A stretch of DNA of 64,000 bases from Aurantiochytrium sp. KH105. Lineage: Eukaryota; Sar; Bigyra; Thraustochytrida; Thraustochytriidae. Both the position numbers and the translations under genes were made by a program. Each line of letters begins with the position of its first letter. Position 1 is the first letter of the stretch. Shown here one piece after another: positions 2,180 to 63,929 of this stretch. The notes under the pieces were generated by a model, which worked only from the letters and a program-made list of their open reading frames with translations, did not search any database and was not told the origin of the DNA. Location of the stretch: the NCBI GenBank assembly GCA_003116975.1, contig BGKB01000227.1, positions 1 to 64,000 on the forward strand, written 5' to 3'.

Positions 2180-4600
2180 CTAGGCCTGGTCAAAGATATC
2201 TTGGTATGCGCGAAGTTGGGCGACATCTCCACTTGCGCGCAAAGTGGGTGCTTTGCCTTTGGGAGGCAGCTCGGGCTCCATGCGGTACAGTCCATTGCTG
2301 TAGCAGTGGCCCAAGGAAGGGGCGAGCCAATAGCTCCATGCGTACATCCGTCCCGTAGTCGAGTCGATGCTCGCCTCTTTGGTGACAATGGCGCGCTCGA
2401 TCATCTCCGAAGCCTGTTCCGGAGACAAGATCTCCATGTGATCAAAGTATGTGCGAGTCGTGCCCGGCAAAGCGATCATCTTGGTTCGCACCAAAGGCAT
2501 GTACACTGTGCTCACCTTGATATTCTCTGTGGCAGTCTCTGATGCAATGCACTTCATGGCTTCCGTCAAGGCGGCCTTGGAACCAACATAAGCCGAAAAC
2601 CGACCCGCACATCCTCGCTGGGCAATCGAACCAATGTTGATAATGTGGCCCTGCTTTTGCGCGCGCATTCCAGGAAGCAAATCGAGCGTCACGCGCATCG
2701 ATCCATAGTAATTCAGCTGCATCAGACGCTCAAAATCGTGAAAGCGGTCCCGCGTCTGATACTCTACCGAGCGGCGGATGGACCGCCCCGCATTATTCAC
2801 CAAAATGTCCACAGCCTTGTACTTGGCATTAACTTTGTCCAGCATCGCATATGTCGATTCGTCTTGAGCCAGGTCCGCAACAAAAACGTCGGCCGTACCT
2901 CCATTCGCCTCGATTTCGTCACGCACAGCCTCCAGCTTCTCGATCGACCGAGCCACAAGAAGCACGTGCGCTCCAGTTTTGCCGAGTCGCAGTGCCAGCA
3001 TCTTTCCGATACCGTCAGAGGCGCCAGTGATCATGACAGTTTTGCCGCGAACAGCAGTCTCCAAAGCCGTCGTCTTGCTGCGACCAGGGTCCATAAAGCG
3101 CACATAGTAGTCCCAAAGTCGCCACGCATAGCGGTCGAAGTGAGGGCAATGAATGTCCGTTCCTCCCAGCGCAGCGCGCGATTCGCAGTCGTCGTAGCTG
3201 GACTTGATCGCCATACAGGCCAGCGCCTGCTCCGGGATCTCAAAGAAGTTCTTGGCAACAACAGCTGGCATTTGCGCAAGAATGGGGATCTTCGCGATGC
3301 GATCCAGGAACTTTGTGTTGGCTAAGCTTTGCAAAAGCTTTGGTACAGAGGCAGAAAAGCCCGGCGCCCCAGCAGCTGCCGCCAAGGTATTCATGATCTC
3401 GATGGCTGACATGGGAGACGGATCAACCAGATGAAAGGTCTTGCTGCGATGGTTGGGCGCATCGCTGTGTGCAATGAATGCCATAGCACGTGCAACGTAG
3501 TCGACGGGGACAATGGGAACCTTGTTGCCTTCAAGAAAGGGGAGCACAGCCGACGAGGGTAACATCTTGCTGGCATTTTGAATGGGTTTGAAAAAGTGGT
3601 ACAGCCCGTCGATTTCGTCCGCTTCGCCCGAGAGGGAGCTCCCCACGATGATGCCAGGTCTGTAGACCCGAAGGTCGCCCTTGAAGCTGGCCCGCGCTAG
3701 CTTTTCGGCTTCGAAGGCGCGTTGTGCAGACGGATCCGAGAAAGTTTGTCCTTCGTCGAGAGCATCTTCGAACCAAACTCCCTCGTGATCACCAGCGACT
3801 GCAAGAGTGCTCATCAAGTGGAAGCGTGTATTCCACGCGCTGTGGAGCATGCTGGCGAAGTCGATCATATGCGCCGTGTCTGCGCACTCGGCGAGACTCG
3901 CGAGGTGGAAAAAGTGGTCCACGCTGATCGGTGTCGCATCCTTTTCTTCATCTTCTTGATTTTGTACATTGTTGCCCGTGAGCAAGTCTGCGATGCTCTG
4001 CTCAAGACCAAGCCCGACGCTGTTAAGACGAGCGTTGAGCGGAAGAAAACGGTCGCTGTTGGACTCGCCGCACCGCTGTCTGATCTTGTTGAGCAGGGTG
4101 ATGCGGGCCGAAGGCGATGTGAGCGCAAGGACGAGCGAGTTGGACTTGCGCGTGAGAAGCTCGGCAATGATGAAAGATCCAAGCAAAGAGCTCGCGCCTG
4201 TGACCAAGTAAATGACGCCACCGGCCTGCTTTGCTGCGCTGATACGCTGCGAGAGCTCTTGCGCCGAAATGCGAGTGTCGCCGTTCATCTCGCGATGGTT
4301 TTTTTGGCTTTTGGAATTGCCATCTAGGGGCGCGATGCTTTCGCGCGACTCACTTCCTGCTTCTCTGTGCCCCCCCTCCTTCATTTCGTCTTGATCGTAT
4401 CCGACTGGATCGAGCTGTTGCTGGAGCTTGAGCCCGCTGGCGTTGGCCAGTGTTTCATTGTCTCGCGTGTTCGGCTGGTCGATGAGCTTTGCGAACTGCG
4501 GTTGCATCGGTGTCTCTCTCGCGCGAGCGGGCCTTGTCGATCTGGCAAAAAGTCGCCGAGCGGCGCTGTCACACGAGGCGTTTCTCTTGAATGGCCACAT
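2180..4600 (-). CDS. two-domain bacterial-type fatty acyl-CoA reductase (FAR)
   Basis: Predicted 806 aa from the ATG giving MWPFKRNASC. Residues 129-500 are a male-sterility/FAR-like Rossmann domain and 518-770 a classical SDR domain. The order and many segments match Marinobacter FAR and mycobacterial FcrA/AcrA1: VYRPGIIVG, DGLYHFFKPIQ, VPIVPVDYVARA, VNNAGRSIRRS, DRFHDFERLMQLNYYGS. The SDR active site is complete (N630, S658, Y671, K675; cofactor loop TGASDGIG). In the first domain the cofactor loop reads TGASSLLG and the expected YxxxK aligns with AQRAF, so that site looks lost. Known enzymes (about 660 aa) reduce acyl-CoA via aldehyde to alcohol; loss of one site suggests an altered product (inference). 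The extra 125 N-terminal residues start Arg/Ala/Ser-rich and could be a mitochondrial presequence; an internal ATG at 4288 would remove them. Likely acquired from bacteria. Confidence 0.75.
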   Translation of the reverse strand: MWPFKRNASCDSAARRLFARSTRPARARETPMQPQFAKLIDQPNTRDNETLANASGLKLQQQLDPVGYDQDEMKEGGHREAGSESRESIAPLDGNSKSQKNHREMNGDTRISAQELSQRISAAKQAGGVIYLVTGASSLLGSFIIAELLTRKSNSLVLALTSPSARITLLNKIRQRCGESNSDRFLPLNARLNSVGLGLEQSIADLLTGNNVQNQEDEEKDATPISVDHFFHLASLAECADTAHMIDFASMLHSAWNTRFHLMSTLAVAGDHEGVWFEDALDEGQTFSDPSAQRAFEAEKLARASFKGDLRVYRPGIIVGSSLSGEADEIDGLYHFFKPIQNASKMLPSSAVLPFLEGNKVPIVPVDYVARAMAFIAHSDAPNHRSKTFHLVDPSPMSAIEIMNTLAAAAGAPGFSASVPKLLQSLANTKFLDRIAKIPILAQMPAVVAKNFFEIPEQALACMAIKSSYDDCESRAALGGTDIHCPHFDRYAWRLWDYYVRFMDPGRSKTTALETAVRGKTVMITGASDGIGKMLALRLGKTGAHVLLVARSIEKLEAVRDEIEANGGTADVFVADLAQDESTYAMLDKVNAKYKAVDILVNNAGRSIRRSVEYQTRDRFHDFERLMQLNYYGSMRVTLDLLPGMRAQKQGHIINIGSIAQRGCAGRFSAYVGSKAALTEAMKCIASETATENIKVSTVYMPLVRTKMIALPGTTRTYFDHMEILSPEQASEMIERAIVTKEASIDSTTGRMYAWSYWLAPSLGHCYSNGLYRMEPELPPKGKAPTLRASGDVAQLRAYQDIFDQA

Positions 4601-4621
4601 GGCGCTTGCTTGTTCTTGATG

Positions 4622-4701
4622 GATGATTCGGATTTGCGATGATTCGGATTTGCGATGATTCGGATTTGCGATGATTCGGGTTTGCGATGATTCGGGTTTG
4701 C
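4622..4701. repeat. 16-bp minisatellite, five copies
   Basis: Five tandem units of gatgattcggatttgc (the last two gatgattcgggtttgc), followed by a degraded sixth. It lies 22 bp upstream of the chosen FAR start, so it falls in the 5' UTR or promoter. Because 16 is not a multiple of 3, translating through it changes frame each unit, which argues against a start further upstream. Confidence 0.9.
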
Positions 4702-6217
4702 AATGATTCGCTTTTACTTCGTCGGGCCTTCGCGCCGCATTGGCATTCGCTCGCCAGAGTCGAAGAGGCCTGCTTTCTTGTCCCTCTTCGTCTGCCTCTC
4801 CAAGAGCCCGATCAAAGTCCCCAAATTGATTGAGGGGGCGCTGAATAATCTCTTCTTCTTTTTTTCCCAGTGTGAGTGTGCGCTCACAATGACTGGCACT
4901 TGCACCGACGCAAGGTATTCTCTCCATCTCTGCGTAAGAAGAGCCGATCAGGCTGAATGCAGAGACACGGCGAACTCTACTTGCTTAGATGGATGGCCCG
5001 AGACGGTGCTTTGTTCATACCGCTGCTGCTGCTGCAAGAAGCTCCTCGGACAACTTAGAGGCCTGCCTGTGTTGGTTGAGCGGGATTTTGCGTTGCGCAC
5101 CAAAATTCTGAGTGGACGGCTCTCTCCGAGTCTTTCTTTTCACCGGCCAGCCAGCGAGCGACCAACCCGTTACTCGAGTTTGAAGGCAACCGGCGCCAGA
5201 GTCAGGAGTTGTGCAGCGTGAAGCGCGCGCTGGCTGATCGTACGTCGCGCAGAAAGAAAATCGTACTGCCTTGACAGTCAGTCTGACCGACCTAGTCGTC
5301 ACGATCTTGAGGGCGAAGAGATTCTTCAGATTTTGAGAAGTCAATCACTGCCAGAGCCAGCCGTGATGACCGATAAGACAGGTGGCACTCATTTCTTCGA
5401 TACGTCACCGCAGAGTACGCACGTCGTTCAAAGTGACCAATGATACGATTTTCCGTGCCGAGTCATTTGTTTTTTTGTTTATGAAGCGCTTCGTCATCAG
5501 TCGTCGACGACGGATCGATCACCAACGCAGGCTTCTCACGCGAGAATTATTTGGCTGGCGCTGATGCTGGGTGAATTAACAGTGGTTAAAATGTGCACGG
5601 GTTGGCCAAGATCGGCGTTGATGTGGGGAAGAGGTTGCGCTCGGCTTGTCGGTCTGCCTCGAGCACTCCGCTTGAGCGAGTTGACAAAAAAAATAATAAG
5701 CCTTTAGAAGCAAGTCTCTCGAGTCCGATAAACCAACGAGTGTTTCGCAAACCGGTCATTCAAGCTAGCATCAGTTGCAACTGGAGCTTGAAGCGCAATG
5801 GTGAGGCATCGTGGACAAAATAGAATGATGAAGAAGCAGTCGCACCTATTCCAAAGAAAAAGAGACCTAGTGCCTGTCTCGCTGCCAGAGCAAGAGACCC
5901 TTCCCATCGATGATGTAGCTGATTAGCTCTTACATGGTAGTGATCACCCGCCCTTTCCGTACACGAAAGCAAGCTTGAGCTCAAGCCCGCGACTGTATCT
6001 GTGAACGCATCTCGCAGAAGTTTGATCCGAGATGTTTGCCGTCAACATTTGCTTAAAGACAGACGCTCCAAGCAATGAGGATAAGGCTAGACTGGGGTAT
6101 CCAGAAACAGCGCCCGCATGTGATTGCGGTGCAACCTATGTCTATACCAGTCTTCCCATTCTACCAATCTCCATTCTACTACTACCAATCTCTCTGTCTC
6201 CTTCGGATGGAAACGTC

Positions 6218-24453: not shown

Positions 24454-27400
24454 TCAAATGACTGATGCTCCATTCACTTCGGCCCCGACTTCGCTTTCTT
24501 CCTCGAGATCATCGTCGAAAAAGTCGCCATCGTATCCGTCTTGGTCGTCCAGTTGGTCTTCCTCAAGGTCATCTTCCTCCTCGTCGCTTGTTTCGTCACC
24601 ATATTCATAATCTCCGACATCCTCGTACTCGTCAGCGCTGGAGTCATTGACAATAATGAACTCCTCGGAGCTCTCGCTTGCAGTATCGTCGACCTCGTAC
24701 TCGTCCTCGCTCGACTCGTTGACGCGCTCCTCGTCAGAACTAAGGGCCGCATCACTGATGGTGTCTTCATGAAGCAATAGCGTCGGGTCATTCATGATGA
24801 GACGAAGCTCGAGGGCAACCTCGGCGAAACGACGGTTCATCTCGGCCATGTCCTCGGCGGTCACCGTGTAGTGGTTGACATTATCGAGCATGGCGAGCGC
24901 CTGGGCCACTTCAGGAAAGTCATTTGCGGTCATACCAATACGCAGGCACTCTTGCATAAGCGTGTAGACAGACAAACCATCCTCTTTGGCAAGAGCCTCG
25001 GTAAGGCTCGCCAGTAACTCGTCTTCCTTTTCCACGCGCAAAAGACGTTGGCGCGCAAGATTCACAATGTTATCTCGAAGCTTCCATTTTCTAGCGAGCG
25101 CGATGCCATTTTCCATGAGCTCACTCGAAGGTTCGTCCATGCCCTTGACAAGAGTGCGTTTGATGTGCAGATGCATACGGCGAATGAACTCAAAGCGCGC
25201 CAAAACACGTCGAGCCCAGGACGATAAAATAAGTGCAGCATCGTCCTTGGAAAGAGAGACGAGAGTCTCGAGGGAATAGTGGGACTGAGCGTTGACGAAT
25301 ACTGCGCCGGTGGCTGGGCTTGTCGCGTACGACCCACGGATGACGCCGTTCAACTTGAAGAGCTGGCACATCATGTCCGTAATCGGTCCTGAAGATTTTG
25401 GAATGGGGCCCATGATGTCAGGCCGGACGCAAGGAGCATAGCGAAGAAGGAACTCTTGAAATGGAATGCCCTTGCCGCGCAAACCGGCGTAGACGTTGCG
25501 CGTGATCAGCCTGATAATGCCCATGCGTTGCGTTTGGGATGAGACATAGCGGACATCGAAGTCCCTACCTGCTTTGCAGGCTGCGTTTGTGCCCACACAG
25601 GCAATATGATAGACTTCCGTGCGCTCGAGGATGCCAATCGCTCGACTCACCTCGCGCTGGAGTGTCTGCGCGGATTCGACGTGGCCCTGGTGTCGATCTT
25701 CAATTCCTTCATTGGACTTTGCCGATGCAGATCTCATCTCGAACTCCTCGGCCTGATCAATGTCCTCGGCGGGCCCGCTGTGAATGCTAAGCGCTTCGCG
25801 CAAGACGTCAATCTCTGAGCACTCGCGAAGCAGGTCGTAGACGTCGCTCGGGATCCGATTGGACCTGATGCGCTCAAGAAAACCCTCGATGGAATAGGAG
25901 ACGACGCCTTTGTAATGTCGGATTTGGAAATCCAGCGGGTGCGCATCCACGAGATAGCGCTTGTGGCTCGGTCGAAGGCGCGCGATTTTGTTTCCAAGAC
26001 CGCGGTCGCTGCTGCCGGGAGCGATAACTTCTTCCTCGATGAGCTGAATGATTCCCAGCGAGGAGACGCCCGTCCTTCGCGAGGCGTATGAGCCATTTGC
26101 GCGCGATGAATACGAGCCATTGGCTCGCGATGTAAAAGAGCTCTCCGCAGACCTCTTCCTTCGGCTCACGGAGCTGCGATTGGGGAAACCGCGCCGAACA
26201 GAGGTGCGCTTGGTCGACGCACGACGAGTGGAGTAGCGCTTGATGGAAGTCCGCTGAGCGGCGTTCCGGCCGACGGAAAGGCGGCCCCGAATCGAAAGCC
26301 TGTGCATGAGATCCTGGGCACGGCTCCCGCCCGAGGGATAGGCCAGAAAGTTGGCGCGACTTGTCGGCGAGTCGGAGCTCATGAGGAGCTCAAGGCAACC
26401 TGTGTTGTACGCCGGAGGGACCTCGACCTCGAGACCTTCAAGCTTGAGACCATCTGCCGTTGCCTGAGCCACTTGCTTGGAGAAGTAGGCGTGAAAGGCC
26501 TCGAGACGATAGTTCTTTAGAAGTTCCTCGAGCGAGGTCTGGTCAGCTTGCATGGTGCCGTTCTCCAGTACACCAATGACACCAACGTTACCAAGTCCTT
26601 TGTTGCTTTTCGAGACCTTGTGTGTCGTGGAGAATGCCATGGCAGCGGCTTGCTGGCCCTGGCTTGCGTCGCGTTGCTCGATGGCGATTTTTTCTGCATC
26701 GAGGTCCTTGTCGGCCACGGCAACCTCGTTGTTGAGGAGCGCCAACAGATAAGCAAAGAGCTGATGATAGACGACGCGGGCGATTCCATCGCGCACAGCG
26801 TACTTGTCCTTGAGAGGCCGTGCTTTGCGAAAGGTTTCGCCCTTGATGACCAAGGTCTTCTCGTTGAGGGCGCGGTGCATCTCGCGCAGAGAGACACCGA
26901 GAATAGTCGAGGGGTCATCACTGAAGCTGCTCTTCACGCTGTCCCCGTCGCCAATGTCATCTCTCACATCTGCCGAGAACTTGAGGCTTCGAATTTCGAG
27001 GATGCCTCGGAGGCAAGCCTCCACACCGTCTTGCGCGGCATCAGACATGCCGAGCGTGGCCATAGCCTCCCTGATGGGTTCTCGCGTCGTTTCATCATCG
27101 AGCATGCCGAACGCAGGAAAGGACTCGGCTCCGCGGTCTGTGATGGAGCCGGAACTGAAGCCAAATGCATTGTAAACGGCGCCAAGGAGGTTGGCGTCGG
27201 TATCGCTGGTTTCGTCGGCCTTTGTGCGGGTCCGTCTGCGGCCCCAGCCCCCAAAGAAGCGTCCGCGCGAAGTTTTGGCCTTTGTAAAGAGGATTTTAAT
27301 ATCTGTCCAGCGGATAAACTCCTCGCCACCAAAGGCATGGAGGATCCTATCGGCAGCCTGGAGTTTTCGCCACCACATGGCATCCTTCGGCTGGGCAAGC

Positions 27401-28185
27401 TGAATCACACGGAGCAGAATGAATTTGGCGACATCACGCTTTCCTGCCTCGAGGAGACCGTGCACGACGATAGTCTGCGACCTTAGACCTTTGGAGGTCC
27501 AGAGATGTCTGTACGCGCGGTCGACGAGAGAGGTGAAGGACTCGGCGCAGAGTTCAGAGAGTTCGCCCAAGCCACTGCCAAACGAGCTCGTCTCGTCTGA
27601 AGCATCTTCAGTCGCCGCGCTATCCTCGTCGTCGTCGTCTTCGTCGGGAAGATCAGAGAGAGTTGCCAGTGAGAGAACGTCTGTCTCGTATTTGAAGTTG
27701 AGAAAAACGAGCACGTTGGGCCCGAGGGACATGAAGTGAAAGCCGCGATCGTAGCGAAGACGCAAGTTGTGAAAAAGCGCGGGCGTGGACAGGTCTCTAA
27801 AGTCCACGGACATGTGTCCGAGACATTGCAGACTCTCCTTGCCCATGCGGACGACCTTGGCGATGGCAGAGGCGCTGAGGGTGACATACCTTGTCCTTCC
27901 ATTGCGGCGCGTTTTCACACGCCCCGCCTCGTCGTCGCTGGTGAACGTCTCGCGGACCTTGGCGGGCGTCCACAGGAGCGTCTTGTCCGGGATCCACACG
28001 AGCGTCCCTTTCGTGAACACCTCGTAGGTATGGTCCTCCCTGCGTCTGTCCACGTACTCGCGCGACAGCCTCCACCATCGCGGCGTCTTCTCCGGGGCCG
28101 CCTCCGCCGCGACCGCCTCCTTCTCCTTCTCCGCCGCCGCCGCCGCCGCCTCCTCCTCCGCGGCGCCTCCCGTGCCGGTCGCCAT
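24454..28185 (-). CDS. degenerate myosin motor-like protein (pseudo-motor)
   Basis: Predicted 1243 aa from the ATG giving MATGTGGAAE (an ATG at 28317 is an alternative). The order of segments follows a myosin head: an SH3-like GTLVWIPDKTLLWTPAKV, then LSTPALFHNLRLRYDRG and VLVFLNFKYE, AYRHLW...SQTIVVHG, an ADRILHAFG helix, a DGIARVVYHQLFAYLLALLN stretch, LEELLKNYRLEAFHAYFSKQV, IRHYKGVVSYSIEGFLERIR, and a converter-like GIIRLITRNVYAGLRGKG with FQEFLLRY. The nucleotide site is ruined: the P-loop GESGAGKT reads GLLEAGKR (243-250), the switch I NNNSSRF is absent, and switch II DIFGFE is replaced (GVLENG). An Arg/Ser-rich insert interrupts the actin-binding region. The tail is short and strongly acidic, with no coiled coil. 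No ATPase is expected; a scaffold or actin-related role is possible. The reading frame is intact, so it is maintained as a protein. Confidence 0.7.
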   Translation of the reverse strand: MATGTGGAAEEEAAAAAAEKEKEAVAAEAAPEKTPRWWRLSREYVDRRREDHTYEVFTKGTLVWIPDKTLLWTPAKVRETFTSDDEAGRVKTRRNGRTRYVTLSASAIAKVVRMGKESLQCLGHMSVDFRDLSTPALFHNLRLRYDRGFHFMSLGPNVLVFLNFKYETDVLSLATLSDLPDEDDDDEDSAATEDASDETSSFGSGLGELSELCAESFTSLVDRAYRHLWTSKGLRSQTIVVHGLLEAGKRDVAKFILLRVIQLAQPKDAMWWRKLQAADRILHAFGGEEFIRWTDIKILFTKAKTSRGRFFGGWGRRRTRTKADETSDTDANLLGAVYNAFGFSSGSITDRGAESFPAFGMLDDETTREPIREAMATLGMSDAAQDGVEACLRGILEIRSLKFSADVRDDIGDGDSVKSSFSDDPSTILGVSLREMHRALNEKTLVIKGETFRKARPLKDKYAVRDGIARVVYHQLFAYLLALLNNEVAVADKDLDAEKIAIEQRDASQGQQAAAMAFSTTHKVSKSNKGLGNVGVIGVLENGTMQADQTSLEELLKNYRLEAFHAYFSKQVAQATADGLKLEGLEVEVPPAYNTGCLELLMSSDSPTSRANFLAYPSGGSRAQDLMHRLSIRGRLSVGRNAAQRTSIKRYSTRRASTKRTSVRRGFPNRSSVSRRKRSAESSFTSRANGSYSSRANGSYASRRTGVSSLGIIQLIEEEVIAPGSSDRGLGNKIARLRPSHKRYLVDAHPLDFQIRHYKGVVSYSIEGFLERIRSNRIPSDVYDLLRECSEIDVLREALSIHSGPAEDIDQAEEFEMRSASAKSNEGIEDRHQGHVESAQTLQREVSRAIGILERTEVYHIACVGTNAACKAGRDFDVRYVSSQTQRMGIIRLITRNVYAGLRGKGIPFQEFLLRYAPCVRPDIMGPIPKSSGPITDMMCQLFKLNGVIRGSYATSPATGAVFVNAQSHYSLETLVSLSKDDAALILSSWARRVLARFEFIRRMHLHIKRTLVKGMDEPSSELMENGIALARKWKLRDNIVNLARQRLLRVEKEDELLASLTEALAKEDGLSVYTLMQECLRIGMTANDFPEVAQALAMLDNVNHYTVTAEDMAEMNRRFAEVALELRLIMNDPTLLLHEDTISDAALSSDEERVNESSEDEYEVDDTASESSEEFIIVNDSSADEYEDVGDYEYGDETSDEEEDDLEEDQLDDQDGYDGDFFDDDLEEESEVGAEVNGASVI

Positions 28186-28672
28186 CTCTGCGACGCTGCG
28201 CCCGCCGCCGTTCGCGCTTTGCCTCCTCCTGCCGCGGCTCGCTCCTCGCGCTGCACGCGCTGCCGAGCGCGTGAACGTGCCGCATAAATCACAGTCAACC
28301 ACTGCCAGCCTCGACATGTACTAGATAGGGCTTCTACAAGGCCCCGTCCTTTTCACGATACTGGACACGTGCGGCTAGGCCCGCTAGCGCAAACGCCTAG
28401 GACGCCGCGGTGTGCGAGGGAGGGAGGGAGCGAGCGAGCGAGCGTTTCCATCTAGTACGAGGCCCATACCTATCGCGGCCGGCATGAGTGCCAGGACTCG
28501 CCTCACCTCGCCTCGCCTCGCCTCGCCTCGCCTGGCCTCGACTGCGCGGAGAGGACGACGGAGACGGAGACTGGCCTCGCGCGCGGCACGGCTGCGGAGC
28601 GCGTCTGCGCCGGGGCCGCGGAGGCCAGGCCGGCGGCCGGGTGCAGCAGGGTGCGTGTGCACGTGCAGGGCG
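28186..28672. other. 5' flank of the myosin-like gene
   Basis: GC-rich, with a (CCTCG)n pentamer run at 28497-28540. No gene supported; long frames here are compositional. Confidence 0.45.
28497..28540. repeat. (CCTCG)n pentanucleotide microsatellite
   Basis: About eight CCTCG units with one or two changes, about 310 bp upstream of the myosin-like gene start. Confidence 0.9.
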
Positions 28673-57882: not shown

Positions 57883-59295
57883 TTATGCCAAGAGACCTGC
57901 AGGTACTGTACTGGTTTGCGTGGAGAGGAGCTTGGCGAGCGTTGCGTCCTCTTCGGGAATACCAAATTCGCGCAGCTTTTCCGTGAGCGTGCGCACCGTG
58001 TCGTTGTGGGTCTTTTGCACGAGCGCTAGATAATTCTCCATGCTTTCAATGGAAGAATCCCGTTCATCAATGACGCGATCGAGCTCCTGTGTCACCCGCT
58101 GCAGCGTGACCGGGTCCACGTTGGCGCAGAGAGCTCGGATTTGCTGTAATCTTTCCTCTTGCGTGTGGCGCATCTGGCCCAGACGCTGCTCCAGTAAGAC
58201 GTTTTTAAACTCTGCCTTGCGCTGCACGTCGCTAATGGTCTCTTCGAAGGTATCATAAATCTTGTCGCGCTCGAACTCGGTAGAGCGGAACCGTGTCTCG
58301 AGATCCTTGTGCTGCGCGCTCTGTTGCGTCAAGTCCTGCTTGAGGCGCTTGAGACGCGCAGTGGCGTATTTAAGACTGGTCTTGTCCTTTTCAAAGTCCT
58401 TGAGCTTGTGTCGCAGCTCGGCTACCTCTTTGACGGCGACGGCGAGTGGTTCGCTCAGCCGCTTGTTCTCTTGCGCAATCTCATACATGAGCTTCTGATT
58501 GGCGGTGGCCTTTTTCCGCATTTCGGAGACTTCTTCCTTGAGCGATCGAATTAGCTTCAGGTTGTCGTGCGTAATGTCGTTGTAGTATGTCTTGATTTGA
58601 TGGAATGCCTTGTCGTGGTTCTTCATGAGATCGTTAATGTGCGAGTTCTTGCGTTCCTCAATCTCGTGAATCTCGACCTTGCGTCGCAACTCGAGCTCTT
58701 GCCTGAGATCCTCCAGGTTGTCCTCGTACTTTTTTCGCAGCGTCTCGAGGTTCTCCTCAAAGGTCTCGTCCAGCTTGCTGAGGTTCTTTTTGTGGGTATC
58801 TTGCATTTGGCGCACGGTCTCGCCATTTTCGAGCTGCACTTCAAGAAGTTCCACTTTGAGCGACTTTTTCCCATCTTTGAGGCCGTCGACGCGCCCTTCG
58901 TGACCGAGTCGCTCCTCTTCCTCCTGAGCATCGCCCTCCGCGGCGCTCTGCTTCATGTTGTTCTTGTGCTCATACTCGAGGTGTTTGACTTTTTGCGCGT
59001 ACACGCGCACCTCAACGCGGTGATTTTCCTCGAGTTGCTCCATTTCCTTTTCTTTCGTCATGATGTCGAGCTCGCATTGCTGCACCTCTTTGCGCGAAAT
59101 GTCGTAAAACGTTTGGATGGTGTCGCGTTCAACTTGGACATAGTTTCTGTCTGCACGAGCCTTTTCCAACTGCTTGTCCAGCTCCTCGATCGCCTTGCGC
59201 AGGTCCTCCTCGGGCATCTCATCGAACTCCGAAGGCTCCTCTGGGGGTGCCTCGTCCTTGCCGCCCTTCTTGCCCTTCTTCGCTTTCTTGCCCAT
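57883..59295 (-). CDS. GAS8: GAS8/DRC4, nexin-dynein regulatory complex subunit 4
   Basis: Predicted 470 aa, normal length. Lys-rich start (MGKKAKKGKKGGK), then continuous coiled coil. GAS8 landmarks: RADRNYVQVERDTIQTFYDI, AQKVKHLEYEHKNN, LKKYEDNLEDLRQELELRRK-like segment, NSHINDLMKNHDKAFHQIKTYYNDITHDNLKLI (split pattern NDLMKNHDKAF, YYNDITHDNL), and the C-terminal KLREFGIPEEDA. DRC4 links outer doublet microtubules and regulates dynein, so the organism builds motile 9+2 cilia. Convergent with SFT2. Confidence 0.95.
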   Translation of the reverse strand: MGKKAKKGKKGGKDEAPPEEPSEFDEMPEEDLRKAIEELDKQLEKARADRNYVQVERDTIQTFYDISRKEVQQCELDIMTKEKEMEQLEENHRVEVRVYAQKVKHLEYEHKNNMKQSAAEGDAQEEEERLGHEGRVDGLKDGKKSLKVELLEVQLENGETVRQMQDTHKKNLSKLDETFEENLETLRKKYEDNLEDLRQELELRRKVEIHEIEERKNSHINDLMKNHDKAFHQIKTYYNDITHDNLKLIRSLKEEVSEMRKKATANQKLMYEIAQENKRLSEPLAVAVKEVAELRHKLKDFEKDKTSLKYATARLKRLKQDLTQQSAQHKDLETRFRSTEFERDKIYDTFEETISDVQRKAEFKNVLLEQRLGQMRHTQEERLQQIRALCANVDPVTLQRVTQELDRVIDERDSSIESMENYLALVQKTHNDTVRTLTEKLREFGIPEEDATLAKLLSTQTSTVPAGLLA

Positions 59296-59996: not shown

Positions 59997-62573
59997 TCAA
60001 TTGTCGATGAAAGAAAGCTCATGAGAACCATGGCCATTTTCTTCTTTGTAGCGCTCAAAAAGTGCCTCAAGCGTGGCAAAGTAGCGATCTTGGAACTCGG
60101 TAATTTCCTCTGGCGTGGGATTGGCTGTCTGGCGAACAGGATGCACCGGCGCGTCTAATGCAACAGTGACGGGGACGCGACAGGGAATGGGCAGACCAAA
60201 CTTTCCAAGCATAAAAATTGGGAACGGAAAGCCCAGCAAATTCTTGAAAAAAGCCTGCGTGCGCGGCATGTAGACATTGTCGAAAATCTGTGGCTCGCCA
60301 AAGCTGAACATGGGCACAATCCCAAGGCCTTGCTGAATGGCGATCTTGAAGATCCCGCGGCGACGCTTTCGCACGATGGCAATCCGGTTGTCCCAGGAAC
60401 GCGACTCGAACATTTCTGTTTGGCCGCCGCAAACGATCTGCACGTTGCGACCCATTCGGATGAGATTATGCACAGTGGCTCGGGACACGTCGCAGCAACC
60501 CATCCACTGGATGACGTCGCGCATCACTGGCACTACATGTGTGATTGTGGCAGTGAGAGGATTTGTGTCGAGGTGGGGAAAGATCTTGCGCCACACGTGT
60601 GTAATCTGCAAAATGCCATGCGTCACGGGCAAGATGCCGTGCGGATGGAAGAGAAGCAGCACCTGCTGATTCTTGGGGTCTTTGGCATTTACATCGCCAA
60701 GAACTGGCGCGAGGCGCTGCATTTCCTCGGTGAGCTGGAGACGCAATCCAAAGAACTTTTCTGCGAGGCGAGGAAGCACGTCAATCTCCTTGAAAATTGA
60801 CCACTCGCGACACGCATTGTACTCGGGACGCTTGGTAAAGGTCGTGGAAATGTAGACGAGGTTTGCCGAGCAAATGACGACCAACATGGCATAGTGCGGA
60901 GACTCGCGAAAAACCGCAATCACACCACCATAGGCTGCGACAGCTGCGAGCGAAAGCAAGAGGCTTTGGCGCCAGCCATCGACTCCCCAGGTATTGAGCG
61001 CCGAGTAGAAGAACGTCCAAAAGGAGATGGCGCAGAGCAGAATCCACCATACTTTGAAGGTGTGCCCAAGTTCTGCCGAGTTTGCAGAGAGCTCGGGAAG
61101 AAGTCCATAGGTGGCCTCGGCCAGCCATGGCTGCGAAGACTCGGGCATGACGTACGGCGCGCAAAAGAGAATCATGTAGAGCACAAAACTGAGAAACTGC
61201 AAGTTGCAAAAGAGCATCATCATGGGCCAAACCATGAAATGTTCGCGAAGCGTAAAGGCTTCCAGAGGACGGTAGTTGCGAGGCGTGACTGTCGGACGCA
61301 TGGGACCACTGTGTTCGAATCGAGGAAGCGAGCTCACGATGGCGTAGTGCGAGATCACTGTAGCGAGTGCGCCCACATACATGGTCCCTTTCATGCCATG
61401 CGTGCCAAGGTAAACGGACGAGAGCACAAATGCGCCTTGTGCGATGATAGCGACGCCGAAAAAGGACCATCCAAAGATTTGCAAAAGAATGAACTCTTTG
61501 CCGCCGCGGAAGAACTGCGCAAACGACCAGCCGCGATTAATGTGACGCAAGCGACCGCCGATGCCATGTGTAAGGGATATGGCCACGATGCAGCAAACGA
61601 GCGAAAGGATACCAAAGATGGGTTTGTGCTTGCTGTCCGGGCTGTGCTCGGAGAGAACACCTAGCACAATGCCAATGACAACGAGAAAAGTGTTCATTTG
61701 CACAAATTCCTTGACGACGCTCGATGTGCTGTAGTCTTTATCCAAGGGAACCTGCTGCTCGTCCGCCGCAGCGTCATGGTCGATGATTGACTTGGCAACA
61801 GACCGACGTCGCATCGTCGTGCGTGCAGACCTATCCGTCGCAGACGTGGATCCAGAGCCGGAACTATACTCGCTGTCCGTCGAGGGTCTGCGCTGCGACA
61901 TATATGCCTGGCGCGCCTCTTCCTCGACCTCATCGGTTGGGTCGTCGGCATTAATGACGCCGCTGTTTTGTCGCCAAATGCGGCGTGCTTTGCGAGCCGT
62001 CTGCGATGGGTCGCTGTACGTTAGCAGCGAGGATACCATGAAGACCTGCGAGAGAAGGCCGACGACGCCAGCGCTCGCGAGCATACCATTATTGTGTTCG
62101 GCGAAAGCCACGGCTGCCATTACTATAACCGCGGTGATGCCGTAGAATGTCCATGAGATGGCCTGCAGCACGACGAAGCGCACGCCGCCGCGAAAAGGTT
62201 GCCAGATCTTGTAGTCATCGTGCAAAAAGTGCCCGATCCAGTGCGTCGCGGGAATGGCTAAAAACACGCCCGCGCCGCCGACGGCTGCGAGGAAGCCGAA
62301 GCCCACCTTTTGACCCGAGGTGTACTGGCGCTCGGCAACGATGAACATCAGCAGCGCAGTCACGGACGAGAGAACAGCGATTTTGATGTACGGGCTCCAG
62401 ACCGCAAAGCTCGACGGCTTCTCCGCGGTCTTGTCGGTCTCCTCGGAGGAAGAGCCCTTGGCCAGGAGCAACTTGGCGTACGCTGCCTCGAGCGCATCGT
62501 GTCGTTTCTGCAAGGCCTCGTGCTCGAGCCGCAGGTTGGCAAAGTCTGCAGCCTCGTTCTTGGCGACCTCCAT
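59997..62573 (-). CDS. DGAT2-family acyltransferase fused to long polytopic N-terminal region
   Basis: Predicted 858 aa from the ATG giving MEVAKNEAAD (the codon opening the frame at 62612 is TTG). Residues 10-40 are coiled-coil-like. Residues 60-590 hold 12 or more hydrophobic helices in two related halves: WQPFRGGVRFVVLQAISWTF (first) and FAQFFRGGKEFILLQIFGWS (second), each preceded by four-helix blocks. The C-terminal 270 residues are a DGAT2/MGAT domain with HPHG at 643-646 (LLLFHPHGILPVTHG), PVMRDVIQWMG, GGQTEMF (the GGxxE motif) and RRGIFKIAIQQGLGIVPMFSFGE. Such enzymes esterify diacylglycerol, monoacylglycerol or fatty alcohol with acyl-CoA at the ER. The usual DGAT2 has only two helices before the domain and about 350 aa, so this fusion is unusual. 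Confidence 0.85.
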   Translation of the reverse strand: MEVAKNEAADFANLRLEHEALQKRHDALEAAYAKLLLAKGSSSEETDKTAEKPSSFAVWSPYIKIAVLSSVTALLMFIVAERQYTSGQKVGFGFLAAVGGAGVFLAIPATHWIGHFLHDDYKIWQPFRGGVRFVVLQAISWTFYGITAVIVMAAVAFAEHNNGMLASAGVVGLLSQVFMVSSLLTYSDPSQTARKARRIWRQNSGVINADDPTDEVEEEARQAYMSQRRPSTDSEYSSGSGSTSATDRSARTTMRRRSVAKSIIDHDAAADEQQVPLDKDYSTSSVVKEFVQMNTFLVVIGIVLGVLSEHSPDSKHKPIFGILSLVCCIVAISLTHGIGGRLRHINRGWSFAQFFRGGKEFILLQIFGWSFFGVAIIAQGAFVLSSVYLGTHGMKGTMYVGALATVISHYAIVSSLPRFEHSGPMRPTVTPRNYRPLEAFTLREHFMVWPMMMLFCNLQFLSFVLYMILFCAPYVMPESSQPWLAEATYGLLPELSANSAELGHTFKVWWILLCAISFWTFFYSALNTWGVDGWRQSLLLSLAAVAAYGGVIAVFRESPHYAMLVVICSANLVYISTTFTKRPEYNACREWSIFKEIDVLPRLAEKFFGLRLQLTEEMQRLAPVLGDVNAKDPKNQQVLLLFHPHGILPVTHGILQITHVWRKIFPHLDTNPLTATITHVVPVMRDVIQWMGCCDVSRATVHNLIRMGRNVQIVCGGQTEMFESRSWDNRIAIVRKRRRGIFKIAIQQGLGIVPMFSFGEPQIFDNVYMPRTQAFFKNLLGFPFPIFMLGKFGLPIPCRVPVTVALDAPVHPVRQTANPTPEEITEFQDRYFATLEALFERYKEENGHGSHELSFIDN

Positions 62574-62855
62574 GGTGGCCCTCTCTCGGCGCCAAGAGTC
62601 GGACGACGACAACGATTCGCGATTTGGGCACTCGGGTGCTTTCTCGAGCGCTTGCTTGTCTTGGGCGGTCTTGGGCTCGATTCGATCTCCCAGTCAGTCA
62701 GCCACCTAGTAGCCAGAGAGTAGTGGAGAGAACAAGAGCGAGAGACCGCTGACTGTGACCTACAGCTAGCAGCCGTGACCGTCGCGAGGCCGGCGAACGA
62801 AAGCAACTCGTTTCCCTGCGCGCCCCGTGCCCCGCGCCGTGCACCGCAACGGCGT

Positions 62856-62920
62856 CGAGTCGGGTCGAGTCGAGTCGAGTCGAGTCGAGTCGAGTCGAGT
62901 CGAGTCGAGTCGAGTCGAGT
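62856..62920. repeat. (GAGTC)n pentanucleotide microsatellite
   Basis: About 12 units with one early change, about 280 bp upstream of the DGAT2-like gene start. Confidence 0.95.
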
Positions 62921-63880
62921 TGAGACGAGAACGGAGACTCCGGCAAGGCTTTTGAGCCTGTGCCTTGGTTGGTTACTTTTCCCTTGGTCGCGTCGCCTCG
63001 GCACGCCTCCGCGGCGCTGGGTCAGCTCGCCCCGCCAGGTCACCAGCTCAGCGCAGCACAGCACAACGCAGCGCAGCGCAGCGCGGCGCAGCCGTCCTCG
63101 TCGCGTGGCTGAGCAGCGCGGCGCCGGCGGCAGCGCAGTTGGGGTTCCGGCCGCCGCGCGGAGGCCGAGTCCAGGCGCCGCGCCGACTTCGTCCGATCTC
63201 GCGCGCGGCGTTGGCGCGCTTTCGTACCACGCACGACACCGATGAGGAAGGAAGCAGGCGAGCTCGCCGCCGGCCGGCTCGCCGGCTCGGGCGGGGCGGC
63301 GGCGGCCGAGCCGCGGCTCGCGGCGGCCGCGCGGGAGGCCGGGAGAGGGATAGAGCGCGCGAGCAGGTGCGAGAGATCCTGGTTTGCTTTGGTTGGAAAT
63401 GTGAGTCGAGTGGTTTGAACGTGGGGTTGGTCGATGATTTGAATTTGAATTTGAATTTTCGATTTGACTGTGAATCGATCCGAGGATACTTTTGAATGGA
63501 CCGTCGATTTGAATCGATCGATCCGTCGATTTGAATTGGCCGCCGGCAGTTCGAAATCGACGCCGAAAAACCTCGACCAAGCCTTGCGATGCGCGGCGAT
63601 GCTTCGGAGCGCGACGGAATGCGCAGCGCGGCGCGGCGCAGCGAGGCGAGGTCAGGTCAGGCAGGCCTCCGGAATTCTTTTTACAGGAAGAAAGCCCCGG
63701 AGGCGATTGACGAGCTCGAGGAAGACCGCCTGCGCCTGTCTCATTACGCTCCTCCTGCCGCTGACAGTGAAGCAGCCAAAAGGTCCCCGAGACCGCGCCC
63801 GGGTCTCCGGGTCTAAGGCGGGCGGCAGCGGCAGAACGCTCGCATCTGCAGCGGCCCGCGGGATGCTCCGCGGCGTGCCG

Positions 63881-63881
63881 G

Positions 63882-63929
<48 letters not shown>
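63881..63929. repeat. (TGC)n microsatellite
   Basis: Sixteen perfect trinucleotide units in non-coding GC-rich sequence near the window end; minus frames read it as polyglutamine or polyserine. Confidence 0.97.

Follow-up and report, generated by a model that had tools for sequence, protein, structure and literature searches.

A gene in the stretch of Aurantiochytrium sp. KH105 DNA analysed here (the window; 64,000 nucleotides of contig BGKB01000227.1) very probably encodes the ortholog of DGAT2C/AlASATb, an ER acyl-CoA:sterol acyltransferase of the DGAT2 type, to which we liken it by published description and not by sequence identity. Ahead of its catalytic domain lie twelve putative helices, and helices TM1-4 and TM5-8 are homologous copies of one four-helix unit. 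The earlier note had put the architecture forward as undescribed. That claim fails: a multi-pass N-terminus joined to a DGAT2 domain is already published, with DGAT2C/AlASATb as a known family carrying the same fusion (PMC8714446, PMC8821962, PMC10686087). The features of the gene are as follows.

59997..62573, minus strand: coding sequence, very probable ortholog of DGAT2C/AlASATb (acyl-CoA:sterol acyltransferase), from the open frame, DAGAT match, length, HPHG position and helix count
62460..62570, minus strand: predicted N-terminal helix spanning residues 2-38, which looks coiled-coil-like on inspection (single-sequence AF2 model; pLDDT 51-67 over this block, whole model poor)
61983..62414, minus strand: repeat 1, residues 54-197, TM1-TM4 (self-alignment, hydropathy)
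61731..61982, minus strand: polar stretch of residues 198-281 linking the repeats; contains RRPS at 228-231 and RRRS at 255-258 (sequence, motif scan)
61269..61730, minus strand: repeat 2, residues 282-435, TM5-TM8 (self-alignment, hydropathy; four long helices in the model at a modest pLDDT of 60.9)
60834..61217, minus strand: TM9-TM12, residues 453-580 (hydropathy; by published deletions in the ortholog, activity and ER location depend on the region with TM9-10, PMC10686087)
60747..60755, minus strand: FFG, residues 607-609, presumed to stand where other DGAT2s have YFP (compare FFG in Schizochytrium ScDGAT2B)
60033..60677, minus strand: DGAT2/DAGAT catalytic domain, residues 633-847 (PF03982, E 2.5e-34)
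60636..60647, minus strand: HPHG, residues 643-646, with His 645 as the presumed catalytic histidine (motif; H644 is essential in mh0186 DGAT2C)

The frame encodes 858 amino acids and runs from an ATG at 62573 to a stop at 59997-59999 with no internal stops, which confirms the coordinates and strand first assigned to it. An in-frame TTG would lengthen it to 62612; we prefer the ATG as the simpler start. The C-terminal part belongs to the DGAT2 family, its DAGAT match scoring 119 bits against a curated Pfam cut-off of 22. No MBOAT domain was matched in Pfam up to E 1, which sets the protein outside the DGAT1/MBOAT family. HPHG is accompanied by PVMR (682-685), GGQTE (716-720) and FGE (758-760). 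To say that all DGAT2 motifs are present, as had been done, is nonetheless a slight overstatement: the RGFA block is partly retained (RRGIFKIA), and FFG stands at the presumed place of YFP, which the protein lacks. DGAT2 members do not all keep the YFP motif, and it is likewise missing from the four published Aurantiochytrium ASATs (PMC8821962).

Length, transmembrane layout and motif position all agree with thraustochytrid DGAT2C. The DGAT2C of Aurantiochytrium sp. SD116 (GenBank MF926506.1; 13 TM by TMHMM) has 857 residues, compared with 858 here (PMC8714446). For A. limacinum mh0186 DGAT2C, a legend counts 12 putative transmembrane regions at the N-terminus and the text '10 more than DGAT2D', matching the 12 hydropathy peaks of the window protein; the HPHG histidines of mh0186 DGAT2C, H642 and H644, correspond to 643 and 645 here, one residue later (PMC10686087). 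AlASATb is Aurli1_43553 of A. limacinum SR21, T66ASATb is T66003952.1, and the b forms of T66 and SR21 are 68% identical. AlASATa/b and T66ASATa/b are described as DGAT2-like proteins with multi-TM N-termini that are rare among DGAT2s (PMC8821962). Schizochytrium HX-308 ScDGAT2B, probably a protein of the same kind, has 857 residues, 11 TM and, like the window protein, FFG at the YFP site. The mutagenesis fragments reported at that FFG measure 1855 and 790 bp (PMC10894473); here FFG starts at coding nucleotide 1819, 759 nucleotides before the end including the stop, and primer tails would explain why the published fragments are longer.

Two published details match less closely. All four SD116 DGAT2s are said to keep 'YF' (PMC8714446); in the window protein the presumed site reads FFG and the sole YF lies at 831-832, a comparison by motif name and not by site. 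Tagged DGAT2C is given as 98.8 kDa for the A. limacinum construct and 99.9 kDa for the yeast construct (PMC10686087), against 96.1 kDa calculated here, or 97.1 kDa with one FLAG; tags and linkers or sequence differences could account for the gap. The passages of PMC10523756 on DGAT2C concern expression timing only. The neighbours in the window are eukaryotic genes, including GAS and Got1, which we count in favour of orthology to DGAT2C. We infer this orthology and, likewise, the correspondence of window helices 1-12 to published TM1-12.

The acceptor range of the ortholog is disputed between laboratories: the acceptor is a sterol in PMC10686087 and PMC8821962, whereas PMC8714446 describes PUFA-dependent triacylglycerol synthesis in yeast. 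It is conceivable, though unlikely, that the window protein acts as a PUFA-specific diacylglycerol acyltransferase (a TAG synthase), instead of or besides a sterol acyltransferase. In the yeast H1246 mutant, SD116 DGAT2C restored TAG with PUFA feeding and not without it; overexpressed in SD116 itself, it raised PUFA content by 17.9% (PMC8714446). Against this, knockout of DGAT2C in mh0186 drastically reduced PUFA sterol esters without lowering TG; expression in yeast did not increase TG; and yeast microsomes containing the enzyme formed ergosterol esters from acyl-CoA, making DHA-ergosterol ester from DHA-CoA and not from free DHA or DHA-PC (PMC10686087). Published knockout and overexpression of AlASATb in SR21 altered sterol esters with no significant change in the triacylglycerol class; overexpression of AlASATa in SR21 lowered two TG species. 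We retain sterol acyltransfer as the preferred function. The C-terminal DGAT2 domain would pass acyl chains, mostly DHA and in strain SR21 palmitate too, from acyl-CoA to sterols by way of the second HPHG histidine, the residue (H644) reported as essential in mh0186 DGAT2C, an enzyme located in the ER (PMC10686087).

The paralog AlASATa/T66ASATa acylates sterols more weakly and differs in its multi-pass N-terminus; we consider it improbable that the gene is instead its ortholog. AlASATa is DGAT2-like too and has several N-terminal TM domains (PMC8821962); it and T66ASATa, which join a DGAT2-like domain to a multi-pass N-terminus as the window protein does, are 28% and 25% identical to their b forms. 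However, ScDGAT2A, which its length suggests is the ASATa counterpart, has 936 residues and HFS at the YFP site, and it is the 857-residue, FFG-bearing ScDGAT2B (PMC10894473) that the 858-residue window protein resembles. The position of HPHG also agrees with that of mh0186 DGAT2C, a protein that AlASATb is said to resemble very closely.

We then turn to the membrane region of this probable DGAT2C/AlASATb ortholog. Twelve hydropathy peaks, called by the Kyte-Doolittle scale with a 19-residue window and a cut-off of 1.2, occupy residues 62-580 ahead of the DGAT2 domain, in line with the twelve or more helices expected there; two further weak peaks fall within the acyltransferase domain. Self-alignment pairs repeat 1 with repeat 2 at a score of 126, with 42 of 141 aligned positions identical. 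Among 1000 composition shuffles the mean score was 30.7 (sd 5.3, maximum 59), and among 1000 local shuffles, in which blocks of 10 preserve the hydropathy profile, it was 36.3 (sd 7.6, maximum 72), none reaching 126. As a control, 165-residue segments slid along three other membrane proteins in the window scored at most 38 against either repeat. Pairwise BLASTP of repeat 1 against repeat 2 gave E 4.6e-13 with composition correction and masking off. Both repeats share the signature FRGG-x2-F-x2-LQ, followed further on by W, F and G.

The duplication does not extend to the remaining helices. TM9-12 scored 37 against repeat 1, a value that 137 of 1000 local shuffles attained, and 29 against repeat 2, which 638 of 1000 attained. 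Aligning the repeat profile to residues 441-640 with hhalign gave a probability of 1.5 (E 0.033). A third, diverged repeat in TM9-12 is unsupported by these scores. The 'two related halves' of the earlier note therefore hold for helices 1-8 (residues 54-197 versus 282-435) but not for the whole 580 residues, TM9-12 being without detectable relation to the repeats. A word search for 'repeat' and 'duplicat' in the DGAT2C, ASAT and ScDGAT2B main texts returned no mention of the TM1-4/TM5-8 duplication, the sole biological mention being gene duplication of the whole enzyme, and a literature search for a DGAT2 with an internal transmembrane duplication found no match. Between the repeats, RRPS and RRRS in the polar linker are possible basophilic kinase sites and could regulate the enzyme.

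Twelve helices with an internal duplication are the anatomy of many transporters, and the window protein has both. Even so, we think it very improbable that the N-terminal module delivers substrate to the acyltransferase as a channel, flippase or transporter. No transporter family, nor any wider family for the repeat, scored above its cut-off in Pfam, NCBIfam or PHROGs, and a PDB sequence search with the full protein gave no match at E 1. At E 10, the repeat profile had a single PDB match, the transporter EmrE (E 1.1), and residues 426-857 had another, Tim9 (E 1); we take both as chance. The ortholog without TM1-8 also keeps its activity and ER location (PMC10686087).

Models of the membrane part are of low confidence. 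AF2 run on the single full-length sequence gave a poor model (mean pLDDT 40.1), and a model of the repeat from a two-row alignment shows four long helices at pLDDT 60.9 and pTM 0.45. Foldseek of this weak repeat model against the PDB returned 269 matches at E 10 and none at E 0.001, so we claim no fold for the repeat. Profile matches discarded as weak were Herpes_BDLF2 (E 0.072 and 0.027, with some 13-14 bits where the cut-off is 27), YbhQ (0.041), Yip1 (0.068), SLATT_4 (0.24), DUF4231 (2.7 and 0.87), DUF202 (8.1) and phrog_30433 (0.039). PRK14013 was likewise discarded: its E value was 0.064 with the whole protein as query and 0.0016 with repeat 1, which scored 18 bits where the cut-off is 386. 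Searches of prokaryote and virus collections, which say little about eukaryotes, gave no relative: six peptide patterns from the protein had no match in viral contigs, their eight matches in genome contigs included none coding for a relative, and tblastn in phage records found no match.

That two adjacent genes were read as one frame, with the membrane part and the acyltransferase as separate proteins, is extremely improbable: third-position GC does drift, with 0.83 over the opening 78 codons and 0.49 over the final 78, but the 858 codons are stop-free, the five blocks spanning residues 313-702 (0.64, 0.64, 0.69, 0.64 and 0.67) show no step at the membrane/DGAT2 junction and so no sign of two genes, and mh0186 DGAT2C was detected in yeast as a single tagged protein whose size, 99.9 kDa, was as expected (PMC10686087). 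The proposal of a single protein, in which a multi-pass and partly duplicated membrane region precedes the DGAT2-type domain, is supported.

Published deletions of the ortholog can be laid over this repeat map. Deletions of mh0186 DGAT2C from TM1-2 up to TM1-8 kept activity and ER location; deletion of TM1-10 lost both. In Aurantiochytrium, removing TM1-8 raised the protein level and sterol esters, with total sterol up about threefold, and removing TM1-6 raised neither protein nor sterol esters; in yeast, ergosterol ester was unchanged without TM1-8. The authors count degradation among the possible causes of the TM1-8 effect and suggest that helices 9-12 aid sterol recognition (PMC10686087). 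Taken with the repeat map, these deletions indicate that the removable part corresponds approximately to the two repeats, leaving TM9-12 and the DGAT2 domain. By mass arithmetic, assuming no tag or one FLAG, the published TM1-8 cut falls at about residue 396-406 of the window protein, inside or just before TM8 (398-416), and its match to the repeat boundary is not exact. That the removable TM1-8 approximates a duplicated four-helix module, within this uncertainty of the cut point, is possibly new, and if so a small novelty.

Helices 1-8, the two repeats, would be dispensable for catalysis, and their removal would raise the enzyme level. The region with helices 9-10 would be needed for ER placement and activity, and helices 9-12 may help sterol recognition, as the published authors suggest. 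Since the level rises without TM1-8 and not without TM1-6, repeat 1 by itself does not set the limit; the duplicated module appears to limit enzyme abundance, probably through its second copy. Of the roles first proposed for the module, regulation fits the ortholog deletions, and no evidence was found for a flippase-like channel; the deletions also fit a need for the TM9-10 region in ER placement and activity. HMG-CoA reductase and squalene monooxygenase are controlled through degradation that depends on sterol, which offers a parallel for a more speculative reading. On this analogy, the TM1-4/TM5-8 module might be a lipid-sensing membrane degron in cis to the sterol acyltransferase, reading membrane sterol or acyl supply and setting the half-life of the enzyme. 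We raise this because removal of TM1-8, but not of TM1-6, increases protein and sterol esters in Aurantiochytrium while leaving yeast ergosterol esters unaffected, and rate it as a long shot.

Several other features of the window deserve record. Upstream of the acyltransferase gene, 62854-62929 holds a tandem array of the five bases GTCGA (15.2 copies, 92% matches), about 280 bases from the start codon, and 63882-63929 holds 16 perfect TGC triplets, CAG on the gene's strand, which would read as poly-Gln, poly-Ser or poly-Ala in minus-strand frames. On the 3' side, the neighbouring frame at 57883-59295 (minus strand) matches the GAS family (growth-arrest specific microtubule binding) at E 9.2e-60; GAS-family proteins point to flagella. 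A 915-residue frame at 2180-4927 (minus strand) combines two reductases in one chain, NAD_binding_4 of the fatty acyl reductase type (242-482) and a short-chain dehydrogenase (629-818). Finally, a 1287-residue frame at 24454-28317 (minus strand) matches the myosin head in two stretches at E 1e-31, the best covering 437-641 of the 679 profile positions.

Beyond its near relatives, the protein can be set against two better known kinds of acyltransferase. TM1-8 appears to be two copies of one module and as such offers a natural unit for probing how the level of the enzyme is controlled. A conventional DGAT2, such as thraustochytrid DGAT2D, shares the DAGAT domain and HPHG; according to the published descriptions available, DGAT2D is predicted to have 2 or 3 TM and shows no counterpart of the multi-helix N-terminus seen in the window protein. 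ACAT/SOAT enzymes of the DGAT1/MBOAT family resemble it in having many helices and in the reaction published for the ortholog, acyl-CoA plus sterol, but the catalytic domain in the window is of the DGAT2 type. Thraustochytrids, as already published, esterify sterols by a DGAT2-type enzyme and not by the usual ACAT-type enzyme, a difference relevant to sterol and provitamin D production.
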